NCBI GenBank assembly: GCA_022564295.1
Contig: JADFLR010000009.1
Location: 62,001 to 126,000 of the forward strand
Source: Bacteroidota bacterium
GTDB lineage: Bacteria; Bacteroidota; Ignavibacteria; Ignavibacteriales; Ignavibacteriaceae
Direction of reading: 5' to 3'
DNA: 64,000 nt
Under the pieces are notes generated by a model, which was not told the DNA's origin, made no database searches, and saw only the letters and a list, made by a program, of their open reading frames with translations. Position 1 is the first letter of the stretch. Each line of letters starts with the position of its first letter. Below are positions 25,303 through 34,147 of this stretch, one piece after another. The translations under genes were made by a program, and so were the position numbers.

Positions 25303-25617
25303 TTGAAGAAAAATATTTTCGATAACATCCCTTCGAACATTCCCGAAGAAATTATTGAAACTTTAGTTGATAGTGATGGAATAAAAGTAGAACGTATTAT
25401 TTCAAGAGGACATGTTTCCCCCAAAGATTTTTGGTACGATCAGGATAAAAATGAATTTGTGATTTTGCTGAAAGGAAGTGCGAAGCTTCTCTTCGACAAT
25501 GATGAGCATATAATATTAAGTGCGGGCGATTATTTAAATATTCCCGCACATAAAAAACACCGTGTTGAATGGACAGACCCCGAAACTGAAACTATCTGGA
25601 TCGCAATTTTTTATTGA
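25303..25617 (+). CDS. Small cupin-domain protein
   Basis: The single cupin barrel has the motifs EFVILLKGSAKLLFDNDEH and AGDYLNIPAHKKHRVEWTDP; the latter is the second cupin motif G(D)xxxIPxxxxHR with a metal-type histidine. I place the start at the TTG at 25303, because GGAG lies 5 nt before it inside the SDR stop region. A GTG at 25297, or an ATG at 25258 overlapping the SDR gene, are alternatives. It ends 7 bp inside the convergent DUF3179 gene. It may act on the same substrate as the SDR. Confidence 0.82.
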   Translation: MKKNIFDNIPSNIPEEIIETLVDSDGIKVERIISRGHVSPKDFWYDQDKNEFVILLKGSAKLLFDNDEHIILSAGDYLNIPAHKKHRVEWTDPETETIWIAIFY

Positions 25618-26660
25618 GCGATTAATGAATTGGGATAAAATGCAGCCCATGCAAACCAGTAGGCAATAAATGCCTTCGCTTGCTGTAAACTCTCACCTGC
25701 TCTTGGTCCTTCAATCGCTTCACCGAATATATTCCATTTGGTTCCTTCATTATCCATCATAACCAGCGGCAGTTCACCTTGAGTAATTGTAAATTCCAAA
25801 GTGGTTCCGTCATCTAATTTTCTTTTATAAGCCGCAGCAAAATTCTTCCCGCTGCTTCCTATTACAACAAATTCATCTCCGCCGAAAGATACATTTTCAA
25901 TCGAAATCTCCGTTGAAAATGAGTTTATTACAAATGCCATCGTTTGTCTTCCTACAATCAAACCGAGAACACGCTCTTTTTTCTGCAGACGGTTGTCTTC
26001 ATTACTAACAGGAAAAATTAGATCATCATTTGTTTTATATCCTCCATAGGGATAAACACCATACTGTCTGCCAAAACCCGTATTGGTAGATAAAAGTTTT
26101 GAGGTCGGATACATTTCACGCCAGGTTTTATAAGTTGTTTCAATTATCTTGCTTGTTTCAATTTCATTCCCTATCAACGAACCGTTAACACATAGCAGTT
26201 TCATCTGCGACCAATTGCTGTTGCTTCCTCTGTCATAAGGAATAAGATTAGAGTTGAACAATAAACCCGATACGCCGAATTCTGAATTTGAAACGACGCC
26301 CTGTCTTTTCCATGCTATTGCTGAGCCGGTTAACGGACAATAAGTAATTGCTGTTTTTTGTCCGCTAATATCATCGTTCACTATTTCATGCCAATCAAGA
26401 ATCGGATGGGGATATACTTTTATCGTTCCGCCAATTTTAATTCCGATAACCAAATCATCATCCAGCAAATAAGAAGCATCGTTAACATTTGTGAATTGCG
26501 GATTATCTACAGATGGAATGCCATCTTTTCCCGGGCCGCCGTCAAATATCTCATCTTTTTTGATAAGCCATTCACCTGATATATCTGCATTATCAACAGT
26601 ATCGCAACTGTTAAGATAGAAAGCTAATGCAATGAGTGAAATTATTTTTGTTACTTTCAT
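25611..26660 (-). CDS. DUF3179-domain lipoprotein
   Basis: The 349-residue protein has a lipoprotein signal peptide with lipobox LNSC (cysteine near residue 19). The DUF3179 core is recognisable from GIKIGGTIKVYPHPILDWHE, then TAITYCPLTGSAIAWKR, and later VLGLIVGRQTMAFVINSF and TLEFTITQGELPLVMMDNEG. The family is common in marine and environmental bacteria and has no agreed function. The gene is 12 bp downstream of the outer-membrane protein gene 26673-27632 and surely in the same transcript, so the two products may form an envelope pair. Confidence 0.87.
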   Translation of the reverse strand: MKVTKIISLIALAFYLNSCDTVDNADISGEWLIKKDEIFDGGPGKDGIPSVDNPQFTNVNDASYLLDDDLVIGIKIGGTIKVYPHPILDWHEIVNDDISGQKTAITYCPLTGSAIAWKRQGVVSNSEFGVSGLLFNSNLIPYDRGSNSNWSQMKLLCVNGSLIGNEIETSKIIETTYKTWREMYPTSKLLSTNTGFGRQYGVYPYGGYKTNDDLIFPVSNEDNRLQKKERVLGLIVGRQTMAFVINSFSTEISIENVSFGGDEFVVIGSSGKNFAAAYKRKLDDGTTLEFTITQGELPLVMMDNEGTKWNIFGEAIEGPRAGESLQQAKAFIAYWFAWAAFYPNSLIAQ

Positions 26661-28136: not shown

Positions 28137-28775
28137 ATGAAAGCTATTATTAAATCACTCGTATTAAGTTTGCTGATTATGACTGCTGCATTTGCCGGCG
28201 GTTTTGATATAAACACTAAAGGCGAACAAACATTCTCATTTAAAGATAAGGTGGGAAGAAACCAGGCAACTTTTTTCAGCACTACACCGCTGGAAGATAT
28301 AACCGGAATGAGTACTGATGTTTGGGGAACAGTATCGTTTGATATTGAAGATGTTGAAAACACTCTGAAAGGTGAAATATTAATCTCCACAGCATCATTA
28401 AAATCAGGAATTGATTTAAGGGATGAACACATCAGCAGTGCCGATTGGCTTGATGCAGAAAAGTTTCCAACTATATCTTTTAAAATTAAAGAAGTGACGG
28501 GGATTGAGAAAATTGAAGACAACAAATTAAAAGCAAAAGTGCTTGGAGAATTCACGGTGCACGGTGTTACAATGGAAGTTGAATCTGAAGTAACGCTTGT
28601 TTATTTGGAAGAAAATGAAATGACGAAAATGAGACTGCCCGGTGACCTTTTGGGAGTAAGGGCTAAGATCAACATTAATCTTTCCGATTACGGCATACAG
28701 CATATGGTACTTGACCAAAAAGTATCAGATGAAATAGAGATAAATGTAAACATTGTTGGTTCCAACAAAATGTAA
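28137..28775 (+). CDS. YceI-family periplasmic lipid-binding protein
   Basis: The 212-residue exported protein (signal MKAIIKSLVLSLLIMTAAFA) has a lipocalin-like YceI barrel thought to bind polyisoprenoid lipids. Typical elements are ISTASLKSGIDLRDEHISSADWLDAEKFPTISF as a family hallmark (a D-x-R-D-x-H-x-x-x-x-x-(F/W)-x-D-x-x-x-(F/Y)-P pattern, around residues 83-114), the FTVHGVTMEVE strand, and a closing segment with IDIN-like strands. The product is secreted to the periplasm. A terminator follows. The upstream palindrome at 27956 suggests redox or nutrient control by the nearby Crp/Fnr protein. Confidence 0.92.
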   Translation: MKAIIKSLVLSLLIMTAAFAGGFDINTKGEQTFSFKDKVGRNQATFFSTTPLEDITGMSTDVWGTVSFDIEDVENTLKGEILISTASLKSGIDLRDEHISSADWLDAEKFPTISFKIKEVTGIEKIEDNKLKAKVLGEFTVHGVTMEVESEVTLVYLEENEMTKMRLPGDLLGVRAKININLSDYGIQHMVLDQKVSDEIEINVNIVGSNKM

Positions 28776-29190: not shown

Positions 29191-29880
29191 TTACCCCACC
29201 CTTTTTTTCAATTCTTCTTTGTTCTGAATAATTAATTTCTTCCGGTCAAAATTGATTACGCCTTTTTCTCTAAGGTCTGTTAGTACAGAATTCACTGTCT
29301 GCCTCGAACAAGCTGTGAGTTCTGCTATATCCTGATGTTTGAGAAATGGTTTAACAAATATCTCATCGCCAATTTGTTTACCGTTTTCATCGGCTAATCT
29401 TAAAAGAAAAGAAATAACACGCTGCCCGGCATCTTTAAAAACTAATTCTTCAATTCGCTCAGAGTATTTGCGCATCTTTAAACCAATTAGTTTTGTCAGG
29501 CGAAGGTTTAGTTCTGGGTTATGATCCACAAATTGCTTGAAATCATCTTTATTAATTGCACAAACTAAAACTTCATCTAGTGTGGTTGCAAATTCTTTTC
29601 TTTCATCTTCATCCAGGTAGGACATTTCCCCAAACACCTCGCCTTTATTTATCAATCCCAAAATCATTTCTTTGCCGTCGGGAGACATCCTGGTAAGTTT
29701 TACCCTTCCCTTCTTCAAAAAGTAGATTGACTTTGAAGGCTCCTGTGGAAAGTATATGGGTTGGTTTTTGGAAATGTTTTGCATAGAAGTGATCCTTTTC
29801 AATTCTTCCATACTTTCATTATCCAAATTTCTAAAGAGATTAAAGTTTTCCAGATACCAGAATTTTGTCAGCTCTGCCAT
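29191..29880 (-). CDS. Crp/Fnr-family transcriptional regulator
   Basis: The 229-residue protein has an N-terminal cyclic-nucleotide-like beta roll (about 15-125) with KGRVKLTRMSPDGKEMILGL and GEVFGEMSYLDEDERKEFAT, the usual sensor-barrel phrases. A long dimer helix follows, then a winged helix with recognition region HQDIAELTACSRQTVNSVLT near residue 170-190. The Fnr cysteine cluster is not present, and RxxxRE-type cAMP contacts are not obvious, so the ligand is unknown. The candidate operator at 27956-27971 fits its recognition helix class. Confidence 0.92.
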   Translation of the reverse strand: MAELTKFWYLENFNLFRNLDNESMEELKRITSMQNISKNQPIYFPQEPSKSIYFLKKGRVKLTRMSPDGKEMILGLINKGEVFGEMSYLDEDERKEFATTLDEVLVCAINKDDFKQFVDHNPELNLRLTKLIGLKMRKYSERIEELVFKDAGQRVISFLLRLADENGKQIGDEIFVKPFLKHQDIAELTACSRQTVNSVLTDLREKGVINFDRKKLIIQNKEELKKRVG

Positions 29881-30779: not shown

Positions 30780-31439
30780 TCATTGCTTTAATTTATCTTT
30801 AAACACTTTTTCAAACTTTTCAACTTTTGGTACTATTACAAAAGAACAATAGCCCTGGTTGGGATTATTCTCATAATAGTTTTGATGATAATCTTCTGCT
30901 TTAGTGTAGTTGTTATACTGTGCTATTTCCGTAACAATTGAGTCCTCCCACACACCTGATTCATTAAGAGCTTTTTTATATTCTTCTGCTTTTTTCTTCT
31001 GCTTATCATTGTGATAAAATATAACCGACCTGTATTGTGTTCCCACATCGTTGCCTTGCCGGTTTAAAGTTGTCGGATCATGTGTCTTCCAAAATATTTC
31101 AAGCAGATCATCATAAGTAATAATATCAGGATCATAATTAATTTGTATTACTTCTGCCGAACCGGTTTCACCACTGGATACCTGTTCGTAAGTCGGATTT
31201 TTAACTGTCCCGCCCGCGTAACCGGATTCAACTTCTTTAACACCATTTACTCTTTCAAAAACGGCTTCGCTGCACCAAAAGCAGCCGGAGCCAAATGTTG
31301 CTTTTTCCAATTTGCTATCTGCACCTTTCTTTAAAGTAAAATTGTCCGTAATGGTTTGCCCTGCTGTTTGGAATCCCAATAATGCAAAGGAAAATACCGA
31401 CAAAAAAATTGTATTAACATTTAAAATATTCTTTCTCAT
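30780..31439 (-). CDS. msrA: Exported peptide-methionine (S)-S-oxide reductase MsrA
   Basis: MsrA repairs oxidised methionine (S-sulphoxide) in proteins. The 219-residue protein has the active-site GCFWCSEAVF with catalytic Cys53 and a second Cys56. Also present are VESGYAGG, the VIQINYDPD strand and the family tail region DYHQNYYENNPNQGYC, which supplies a resolving cysteine. An N-terminal hydrophobic segment (residues 9-28) looks like a signal peptide, so the enzyme probably works in the periplasm. It is close to the redox-type genes 28881-34147 but transcribed on its own. Confidence 0.95.
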   Translation of the reverse strand: MRKNILNVNTIFLSVFSFALLGFQTAGQTITDNFTLKKGADSKLEKATFGSGCFWCSEAVFERVNGVKEVESGYAGGTVKNPTYEQVSSGETGSAEVIQINYDPDIITYDDLLEIFWKTHDPTTLNRQGNDVGTQYRSVIFYHNDKQKKKAEEYKKALNESGVWEDSIVTEIAQYNNYTKAEDYHQNYYENNPNQGYCSFVIVPKVEKFEKVFKDKLKQ

Positions 31440-31660: not shown

Positions 31661-34147
31661 ATGGGCGTACTAAAAAAATATTTTAACTGGCTGCAGAAAG
31701 ATGTTCCAACCGGCGAAGTAGAACGCTACCCTGAAATAGATGAAAATGGTGAAACATCTGTAAAAGGAATTTATATAATTGGCGATCTTACCGGTATTCC
31801 ACTGCTTAGGCTTGCTGCAGAAAGCGGTACTAATATAATAAACCGTTTTGAGAAAGATGAAGAGTTTCAAAAACAGAGAAGAAGCAATAAAGATAATTCG
31901 GTTTATGATTTGGTGATTGTTGGTGCGGGTCCGGGCGGAATAGCCGCAGGTATTGAAGCAAGCAAGCATGGCTGGCAATTTAAGATACTAGAATCCTCAC
32001 AAAAGTTTAACACCATCACTAACTTCCCAAAAGGCAAACCGATATTTGCAGAGCCGGAAGATTATATACAGAAATCCGATCTTAAAATTAATGACGGTAC
32101 AAAAGAATCATTGCTAACCGATCTTGAAAATCACATTAAAGATATTGACCTGCCCATAAACGAAGGCGTAATGGTTGAAAAGATTGATAAGAAAAACAAT
32201 CATTTTGAACTGATAACAAAACGCGAAAATTATAAGGCGCTTCGCATAATTCTTGCAATAGGCAAAACGGGGAATGCAAGTATGTTAAATGTCCCGGGTG
32301 AAAATCTTCCCAAAGTTTTCAACCGCCTTTTTGATCCAGCCGATGCTGCAGGACAGGAAGTTCTCGTAGTTGGCGGCGGCGATACAGCGTTGGAAACAGC
32401 AATTGCAACTGCAAAATATGCTTATTCCGCAACTCTCTCTTACAGAAAACCATCTTTTGCAAGACCAAAGGAAGGAAACGTGGAAGAATTTAGCAATTTG
32501 GTTAATGAAGGTAAAATTAAATTGCTCACGGAAACCAATGTGGAAGAAATAAAAGAAAATGAGGTTATCCTCACTGATAAATCGGGTAAAGAAATTACGC
32601 TTAAAAACTCTATGGTTTTCACAATGATCGGAGGAGAATTACCCACTCAATTCTTTAAGCGAAGCGGCATAAAAATGGAGGGCGAGCTTTCGCTAAATGC
32701 AAAACTACAATTTGCTTTACTTCTCTTAGTTTCGGGTGTGATTTATTTTGGGAAAAGCAGTGCTTATTTTTATAAAGATTTATTCGGCATAACTGGTTCT
32801 TTTGGGGAAGCTATTGGTTATCTCATTACTCCAGAATTTTGGGGTAAGTTTTTAACCTTCCCGGGTGTTTTGCTTTCCACACTTTTCTCTGAACAGGTAA
32901 GAATATGGAGTGTTACAAAATATATTAGCGCCGCTGTTGCATACTTTTGTTTTATAGCTGTTGTTATACTTGGAATATATTTGCTTATCAAATTTATTAA
33001 GGATAACTATAAAACATTCTCATTAAATTGGAAGACATTCAAATTCGCATACTTCATTTCGGTTGCGATATTCTTTGCGGTTGTCTTCTTCGGAGGAAGA
33101 TATTTTGGTGTGCTTGTATTCGATAAACCTCAAAGCTTTTGGTACACAGGATTATATTCGCTTACGATTTTAATCTTCGGCTTGCGAAGAATAAAAATGA
33201 AACCGACAACATATATTAAATTACAAACGTGGACTTTAATTTCAATACAGGCACTACCGTTGTTCATTTTACCCGAATTTGTTTTCCCTGCAATGGGCAG
33301 CGCCGGGATGCTTGGTGGGAATGATGGATTTATAATGTCTCAGGTCTTCCCAAAAGAAAGTTATTGGAGATCATACGGCTTTATTCTTGCATGGCCGCTG
33401 AATATGAACAATCTTTATAGTTCAAATATCACAACATTCTGGTTGTTATTCAGTTTGTTTCAAACGTTTGTGGTTATTCCTTTTATAGTTTACAAATGGG
33501 GCAAAGGTGCTTACTGTGGGTGGATTTGTTCCTGCGGCGCTTTGGCAGAAACACTCGGTGATGAATACAGAACTCTTGCACAGCACGGTCCAAAAGCAAA
33601 GAAATGGGAAAACTTCGGACAGTGGGCCTTACTTGCGGCATTTATCATTACCGGATTGAAACTAATAAGTGTTCTTCACAATACCGAAATTGCTATTATC
33701 AATGAATCAGTCTCTTACACTGCAGATTTTTTTCACAAATTTTATTACATAGGAATTGATGTTGTTTTTGCCGGAGTGCTTGGTGTTGGTGTTTACTTCT
33801 TTTTAAGCGGAAGAGTTTGGTGCAGGTTTGGCTGCCCGCTTGCGGCGCTCATGCATATTTATAATCGCTTTTCTCCTTACAGAATTTTTTCGGAAAAGAA
33901 GAAATGTATTTCCTGTAACATCTGTACAAAGGTTTGTCATATGGGAATTGATGTTATGAACTATGCCAACAAAGGTATCCCGATGAACGATGCGGAATGT
34001 GTTAGGTGCTCGGCTTGTATCGTTAACTGCCCAACTCAGGTTTTGTCTTTCGGCTCATTACCAAAAGGCGATACTAAAAATGAATCTTATAAAAAACTGG
34101 ATATTGATTTAACGAACAAAGCAGCCGCCTGGGGAAGTGGTTTGTAG
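31661..34147 (+). CDS. Fusion of a YpdA/thioredoxin-reductase-like flavoprotein with a NapH/NosR-type membrane polyferredoxin
   Basis: This 828-residue protein has two halves. Residues 80-345 form a two-dinucleotide-binding flavoprotein: FAD motif VIVGAGPGGIAAG at 85-97 and NADPH motif VLVVGGGDTALETA near 231. There is no CxxC redox pair. Residues 35-55 (GIYIIGDLTGIPLLRLAAES) look like the C-terminal FAD-contacting GxxxxGD motif of this family placed at the N-terminus. From about residue 350 come several membrane helices, CGWICSCGAL and CRFGCPLAAL as in NapH/NosR, and two 4Fe-4S motifs, CISCNICTKVC and CVRCSACIVNC. It could pass electrons between NAD(P)H and the membrane. The partner is unknown. 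Confidence 0.88.
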   Translation: MGVLKKYFNWLQKDVPTGEVERYPEIDENGETSVKGIYIIGDLTGIPLLRLAAESGTNIINRFEKDEEFQKQRRSNKDNSVYDLVIVGAGPGGIAAGIEASKHGWQFKILESSQKFNTITNFPKGKPIFAEPEDYIQKSDLKINDGTKESLLTDLENHIKDIDLPINEGVMVEKIDKKNNHFELITKRENYKALRIILAIGKTGNASMLNVPGENLPKVFNRLFDPADAAGQEVLVVGGGDTALETAIATAKYAYSATLSYRKPSFARPKEGNVEEFSNLVNEGKIKLLTETNVEEIKENEVILTDKSGKEITLKNSMVFTMIGGELPTQFFKRSGIKMEGELSLNAKLQFALLLLVSGVIYFGKSSAYFYKDLFGITGSFGEAIGYLITPEFWGKFLTFPGVLLSTLFSEQVRIWSVTKYISAAVAYFCFIAVVILGIYLLIKFIKDNYKTFSLNWKTFKFAYFISVAIFFAVVFFGGRYFGVLVFDKPQSFWYTGLYSLTILIFGLRRIKMKPTTYIKLQTWTLISIQALPLFILPEFVFPAMGSAGMLGGNDGFIMSQVFPKESYWRSYGFILAWPLNMNNLYSSNITTFWLLFSLFQTFVVIPFIVYKWGKGAYCGWICSCGALAETLGDEYRTLAQHGPKAKKWENFGQWALLAAFIITGLKLISVLHNTEIAIINESVSYTADFFHKFYYIGIDVVFAGVLGVGVYFFLSGRVWCRFGCPLAALMHIYNRFSPYRIFSEKKKCISCNICTKVCHMGIDVMNYANKGIPMNDAECVRCSACIVNCPTQVLSFGSLPKGDTKNESYKKLDIDLTNKAAAWGSGL

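Follow-up and report, generated by a model that had tools for sequence, protein, structure and literature searches.

One ORF in the window raises the question of how a flavoprotein can complete its FAD site when the segment that normally closes the fold stands at the wrong end of the chain, and what such a protein does once joined to a membrane iron-sulphur module. The window is the whole stretch of DNA analysed, 64,000 nt at positions 62,001-126,000 (forward strand) of contig JADFLR010000009.1 from a Bacteroidota bacterium (GCA_022564295.1). A sequence-only reading had placed the closing motif at residues 36-55, ahead of the first Rossmann motif as in a circular permutation, and this position was borne out, with GAGPGG at residues 88-93. 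The features of the gene are as follows.

31661..34147, +: permuted flavoprotein and membrane polyferredoxin fusion, 828 aa (ORF; orthologues 65-82% identical over full length)
31706..31885, +: displaced FAD-closing segment, residues 16-75, C-terminal in canonical enzymes (phmmer, profile, HMM, rotation)
31766..31825, +: GIYIIGDLTGIPLLRLAAES motif, residues 36-55, N-terminal of GAGPGG (sequence, alignments)
31901..32695, +: FAD and NAD(P) Rossmann domains, YpdA/TrxR-like, cysteine-free, residues 81-345 (Pfam, NCBIfam, fold search)
31922..31939, +: GxGxxG of the FAD Rossmann fold (GAGPGG), residues 88-93 (sequence)
32372..32389, +: GGGDTA, second (NAD(P)) Rossmann motif, residues 238-243 (sequence, alignment)
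32693..33790, +: eight predicted TM helices, residues 345-710 (TM prediction, AF2), at predicted residues 345-366, 417-452, 457-482, 491-513, 517-547, 592-613, 651-672 and 686-710
33515..33535, +: CGWICSC (CX3CXC), Cys invariant, residues 619-625 (alignment)
33821..33835, +: CRFGC (CX3CP), Cys invariant, residues 721-725 (alignment)
33905..34030, +: 2x[4Fe-4S] ferredoxin-like dicluster, eight conserved Cys, residues 749-790 (Pfam, alignment)

Domain content and immediate surroundings

The start codon of the ORF is supported by its N-terminus (YFxWLQKD...), which is conserved across MAGs of many phyla. An HMM domain search, proposed as a check in the sequence-only reading, recovered both halves of the protein. 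In the flavin domain, Pyr_redox_3 matched residues 85-340 and Pyr_redox_2 residues 82-350, the latter covering model positions 1-264/291 only; Pfam gathering thresholds were exceeded for PF07992 and PF13738 (110 bits vs 26.1 and 147 bits vs 30). The best NCBIfam match was YpdA (TIGR04018) at 153.5 bits, under the equivalog cut-off of 339.9. Thioredoxin reductase (TIGR01292) scored 84 bits, under its cut-off of 343, and the redox-active CxxC of the NAD domain was absent. There are no cysteines at all in residues 1-347, which speaks against the flavin domain acting as a disulfide reductase. In the membrane part, Pfam reported Fer4_5 at residues 602-634, a second copy of it, and a 4Fe-4S dicluster at 748-794. 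The best NCBIfam match here was NapH/MauN (TIGR02163), at 58.5 bits under a cut-off of 213, and NosR (NF046105) scored 42-44 bits against a cut-off of 1000, with only the C-terminal part matched and not the N-terminal FMN domain. The description of this module as NapH/NosR-like thus holds as far as real homology goes, but with scores so far under the curated cut-offs it is a member of neither family.

The fusion gene is flanked by msrA on the opposite strand and by a Yip1-domain gene. Upstream lie genes for DUF3179 (25611-26660), YceI (28137-28775), a Crp/Fnr-type regulator (29191-29880) and MsrA (30780-31439); L033, the closest relative, has this block in the same order, whereas most other relatives do not. 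A promoter scan returned sites no more numerous than in shuffles.

The closing segment is displaced to the N-terminus

When the whole protein was searched against the PDB with phmmer, the best segment of the glutathione reductase matches was query 15-76 or 26-76, and its partner region was residues 284-366 of those enzymes, the segment with which they close the FAD site. Taken by themselves, residues 1-76 matched PF07992 solely at its C-terminal end, positions 254-289/291 (E 3.7e-4). The segments of 14/20 family members, each searched singly, also matched this family. A profile built from 20 rows of the segment was searched against 177,635 PDB sequences. The best 60 matches listed were all pyridine-nucleotide reductases (best E 1.8e-6), among them glutathione reductase, lipoamide dehydrogenase, AhpF, TrxR and similar enzymes, and within these 60 every match fell at the C-terminal closing site. 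The corresponding segment HMM matched residues about 258-322 in all 17 canonical flavoproteins, and in 16 of the 17 its score exceeded the best of 340 shuffles.

The reverse comparison gave the same arrangement. Against an HMM of six canonical YpdA sequences, most permuted proteins aligned as two blocks (about 4-276 and about 277-330) in exchanged order, the second sitting N-terminally in the query; this second block was weak in the fused family and reached 5-12 bits in a sister family. Rather than the canonical order of FAD domain, NAD domain and closing segment, the protein therefore has the closing segment first, with both canonical blocks present and neither missing. After in-silico rotation, 17/17 permuted proteins gave a single continuous YpdA-HMM match, and the Pfam matches lengthened to 1-305/305 and 1-288/291. 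Since rotation adds only a few bits, the evidence for permutation lies in the position and order of the matches and not in the size of the gain. A normal closing motif further downstream, named beforehand as one of two findings that would speak against a permutation, was looked for, and none was present after residue 345, where the first TM helix starts (Pfam, AF2). Comparison of sequences thus confirms that residues 16-75 correspond by homology to the segment that closes the FAD site at the C-terminus of canonical enzymes, a likeness far beyond chance, and the proposed circular permutation has the independent backing of profile, rotation and phylogenetic tests.

Structure prediction, also suggested at the outset, yielded an AF2 model from 82 homologues with pLDDT 87.5 and pTM 0.81; a first model from 8 sequences was poor (pLDDT 50.7) and was set aside for conclusions. 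The N-terminal segment is modelled as a strand at residues 37-39 and a helix at 49-65, both confident, and residues 1-80 otherwise show only isolated bridge residues at 24 and 31 (DSSP). Since a strand is assigned by DSSP only when it has a partner, and there is no second one within residues 1-80, the strand at 37-39 most likely pairs with the Rossmann core. The other finding named beforehand, a model in which the motif is clear of FAD, did not arise: the segment has its strand and helix, and from sequence and model we infer its contact with FAD. Residues 79-340 superpose on YpdA 1-265 (VIA-align Z 22.1, rmsd 9.8, 257 aligned, 28% identity), and the last 55-60 YpdA residues have no colinear counterpart in the model, as found with a sequential aligner that is blind to a permuted segment. 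Fold-search matches were confined to residues 78-341, the search barely covering the membrane module, and a profile of that module matched only ferredoxin-like chains in the PDB. The eight TM helices place the flavin domain and all Fe-S motifs on one side of the membrane (TM prediction, AF2), taken as the cytoplasm because the flavin domain precedes the first TM helix and has no signal-peptide-like start.

It could be argued that the N-terminal segment is an independent motif, or the remnant of another flavoprotein fused upstream, and that the FAD site is closed otherwise or is non-functional. Such a reading would draw on the shortness of the segment, which spans only ~60 residues, and on a FAD contact that is deduced from a model. 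However, the profile, the HMM and the rotation all map the segment to the canonical closing site, its GDLTGIPLL is unchanged across close orthologues, it is found in two sister families with different partners, and an alternative closing segment is absent from the protein. We therefore regard this explanation as very improbable and retain circular permutation.

Distribution and origin of the permuted domain

A scan of genome contigs found 51 loci, mostly full-length fusions. The fusion family (41 aligned relatives) extends over about ten phyla by MAG labels, which may err where bins do; the labels include Ignavibacteria/Melioribacteraceae, Bacteroidetes, Aminicenantes, Chitinivibrionales/Fibrobacteres, Lentisphaerae, Spirochaetes, Acidobacteria, Chrysiogenales, Peregrinibacteria and others. 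The N-terminal segment was present in all 32 fusions read, and the rearrangement is common to about 70 relatives. These include a sister family of about 445 aa (Fd-permuted), composed of a TM helix, 2x[4Fe-4S] and the same permuted domain, whose members end where a closing segment would come next. Among genomes sampled from the phylum of the window, 35/296 carried the permuted domain. No relatives were found among viral contigs.

In a tree rooted with YpdA (six sequences, the one outgroup used), the two permuted families were sister clades, with 100/100 for the permuted set. This tree replaced an earlier one with a long-branch canonical outgroup. The result is compatible with a single origin of the permutation, which is ancient and conserved in two families, one of them the membrane fusion of the window.

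The membrane module also occurs beside a separate flavoprotein

All 13 module cysteines were conserved in 41 other fusions and 10 stand-alone modules, save that one truncated fusion row is without the last. The module, fused or alone, was found in 51/198 genomes of the phylum, and fusions account for 8 of the 51. Where it stands alone, it directly adjoins a separate flavoprotein of about 440 aa on the same strand in 17/22 loci read; the four such flavoproteins scanned contained PF07992 in normal order. This pairing is good evidence that module and NAD(P)H flavoprotein form the working unit, and that the fusion is a version of it with another flavin domain, a permuted one. Three stand-alone modules (L185, L189, L191; 445 aa) have no flavoprotein neighbour, and a 421-aa lipoprotein-like gene lies upstream of each.

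Gene context of the fusion and the module

Comparison of gene neighbours, proposed earlier as a way to a terminal acceptor, did not identify one; in relatives, the surrounding genes are indicative of arsenosugar biosynthesis and of the pentose-phosphate pathway. Arsenosugar genes lie within about 8 kb at 15/39 fusion loci. Representative neighbours scored above NCBIfam cut-offs for ArsS (TIGR04167), TIGR04169, TIGR04282 and TIGR04283, while ArsM-like neighbours fell under the cut-offs yet match arsenite methyltransferase models. Pentose-phosphate genes (zwf, pgl, tal-pgi; named by sequence likeness) were found at 11/39 fusion loci and DUF547 at 18/39. The gene of the window is not beside arsenosugar genes: none of ArsS, ArsM, TIGR04169 or TIGR04282-3 is in the window, and the ArsS gene of this genome is on another contig (C48; locus L176).

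Across 59 order-level relatives, ArsS was present in 9/10 genomes with the fusion vs 3/49 without (Fisher p 1.7e-7), and in 11/12 genomes with either fusion or stand-alone module vs 1/47 (p 5e-10); in the phylum sample the figures were 33/51 module genomes vs 46/147 without (p 3e-5). These p-values all ignore shared ancestry and so overstate the strength of the association. Nor is the link exclusive, as 18/51 module genomes lack ArsS and 46/79 ArsS genomes lack the module in the phylum sample.

Five loci (L170, L171, L177, L178, L187) share a recurrent order of flavoprotein, polyferredoxin and glycosyltransferases (AglJ-like GT2, a second GT2, GT87), and in three of these (L170, L171, L178) ArsM-like, purine nucleoside phosphorylase-like, ArsS and peroxidase-like genes are close by. 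Loci of this flavoprotein-polyferredoxin-glycosyltransferase type suggest lipid-linked arsenosugar assembly. At two further loci, both holding ArsS, a gene resembling a Rieske domain plus a flavin-reductase-like domain directly precedes the fusion (L040:6910-8001, and L044).

Proposed mechanism and candidate acceptors

The protein is probably a single-chain NAD(P)H-oxidising membrane enzyme, in which a permuted YpdA/TrxR-like flavin domain passes electrons through [4Fe-4S] clusters to a membrane-associated acceptor, and which is the one-chain form of a two-gene unit. NAD(P)H-to-membrane electron transfer is the predicted activity, and both the domain content and the two-gene version give it good support. 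The sequence shows that the usual last strand-helix segment of the fold is now N-terminal and that the old C-terminus runs straight into the first TM helix; in three dimensions the permuted segment would rebuild a normal FAD site. NAD(P)H would reduce FAD through hydride transfer, and FAD would then hand single electrons to the cytoplasmic-side [4Fe-4S] clusters of the C-terminal dicluster, with probably one further cluster on the CX3CXC/CX3CP cysteines, as the conserved cysteines and topology imply. NADPH may be favoured over NADH, given the conserved YRxxxFxRxK after the second Rossmann motif and the zwf/pgl neighbours. The clusters would deliver to an acceptor at the membrane, either a quinone or a pathway enzyme. 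Gene maps show that a common pair, in which the same membrane module accompanies a canonical NAD(P)H flavoprotein, has its one-chain counterpart in the fusion, and this pair is frequently part of arsenosugar/lipid-glycan loci. The best reading is that the enzyme serves arsenosugar or lipid-glycan synthesis in many lineages.

Which acceptor is used admits several answers. Menaquinone, with the protein acting as an NAD(P)H:quinone oxidoreductase (a NapH-like quinol dehydrogenase in reverse), is plausible if somewhat short of probable; homology to NapH/MauN and NosR, the eight TM helices and the placing of all redox motifs on one side, adjoining the membrane, argue for it, but no quinone site was identified and the link to arsenosugar genes would be left unexplained. 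A second reading makes the protein a dedicated reductant of arsenosugar synthesis, its clusters acting on the radical-SAM enzyme ArsS or converting pentavalent arsenic intermediates to the trivalent state. Here the co-occurrence of ArsS in the order-level relatives (11/12 vs 1/47), the adjacency of ArsS, TIGR04169, TIGR04282/4283 and ArsM genes in relatives, and zwf/pgl neighbours that would provide NADPH all fit. Against it, modules without ArsS and ArsS without modules both occur, there is no sign that ArsS meets the membrane, and NADPH is a rather weak reductant for a radical-SAM cluster, so that we judge this acceptor rather unlikely. The two roles, reducing quinone and supplying the arsenosugar pathway, do not exclude each other. 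A third candidate is the lipid carrier, for example a polyprenyl chain, or another membrane substrate used by the glycosyltransferases of the linked operon (AglJ-like GT2, GT87). It would explain the gene order of flavoprotein, module and glycosyltransferases at several loci, but several module loci are without these glycosyltransferases and we know of no precedent for such a lipid-carrier reductase; it appears improbable.

Relation to known systems

Few enzyme groups are as large as the two-dinucleotide-binding flavoproteins, whose segments are generally taken to come in a fixed order. The fusion has FAD and NAD(P) Rossmann domains in common with the bacillithiol disulfide reductase YpdA/Bdr and the TrxR-like ferredoxin-NADP reductases (PF13738/PF07992), and its flavin domain is without a cysteine pair, as in TrxR-type FNRs. 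It differs from both in carrying the closing segment at the N- and not the C-terminus and in having a membrane module, as well as in falling under the YpdA equivalog cut-off. With NapH/MauN and the C-terminal part of NosR it shares TM helices carrying CX3C(P) motifs, with a 2x[4Fe-4S] dicluster behind them. However, its first motif is CX3CXC, with Ser for Pro, it has eight predicted TM helices, it is without the periplasmic FMN domain, and it scores far under the curated cut-offs. The two-gene flavoprotein and polyferredoxin units of Bacteroidota, often in arsenosugar loci, have the same module, the same 13 Cys and an NAD(P)H flavoprotein partner, but this partner is separate, unpermuted and of another Pyr_redox_2 subfamily, unlike that of the fusion. 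No named family was found for the two-gene unit.

The literature search returned no account of such a permutation or of the module in arsenosugar loci, which is weak evidence as subscription papers were mostly outside its scope. A recent preprint on permutant detection makes no mention of flavoproteins (PMC12667903). Among proteins already described, FesR, a chromate/selenite reductase reported to have FAD and two [4Fe-4S] domains, was weighed as a possible relative and set aside: its FAD domain, residues 16-520, had been likened to 2UUU, 4BBY and 1WVF rather than to TrxR-like proteins, and no TM was predicted (PMC8957926).

The widest claim would be that a natural circular permutation of a two-Rossmann NAD(P)H flavoprotein is here recognised for the first time, that it is used in two membrane redox families, and that one of these is a dedicated NADPH-driven electron supply for arsenosugar/arsenolipid synthesis, with the permuted domain taking the place of a separate canonical flavoprotein; as a whole we hold this to be doubtful. 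The protein is nonetheless a widespread, conserved permutant that standard domain models report only in part, Pfam covering 85-340 and stopping short of the profile's end. The fold evidently accepts new chain ends at the closing loop, a property of use in engineering fusions, and the link to arsenosugar genes offers a concrete, testable candidate electron source for that pathway.

Lastly, the Fd-permuted family, a sister clade with the same permuted flavin domain, has an N-terminal ferredoxin in place of the C-terminal membrane module of the fusion, and is often beside multihaem cytochrome genes. In most loci from L013 to L032 a large gene for a multihaem c-type cytochrome (about 490-510 aa) comes after the Fd-permuted gene, as with L013:1126-2460 and L013:2433-3932. 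Together, these loci look like an NAD(P)H-to-periplasm electron route. At L015 a membrane protein gene precedes the Fd-permuted gene.
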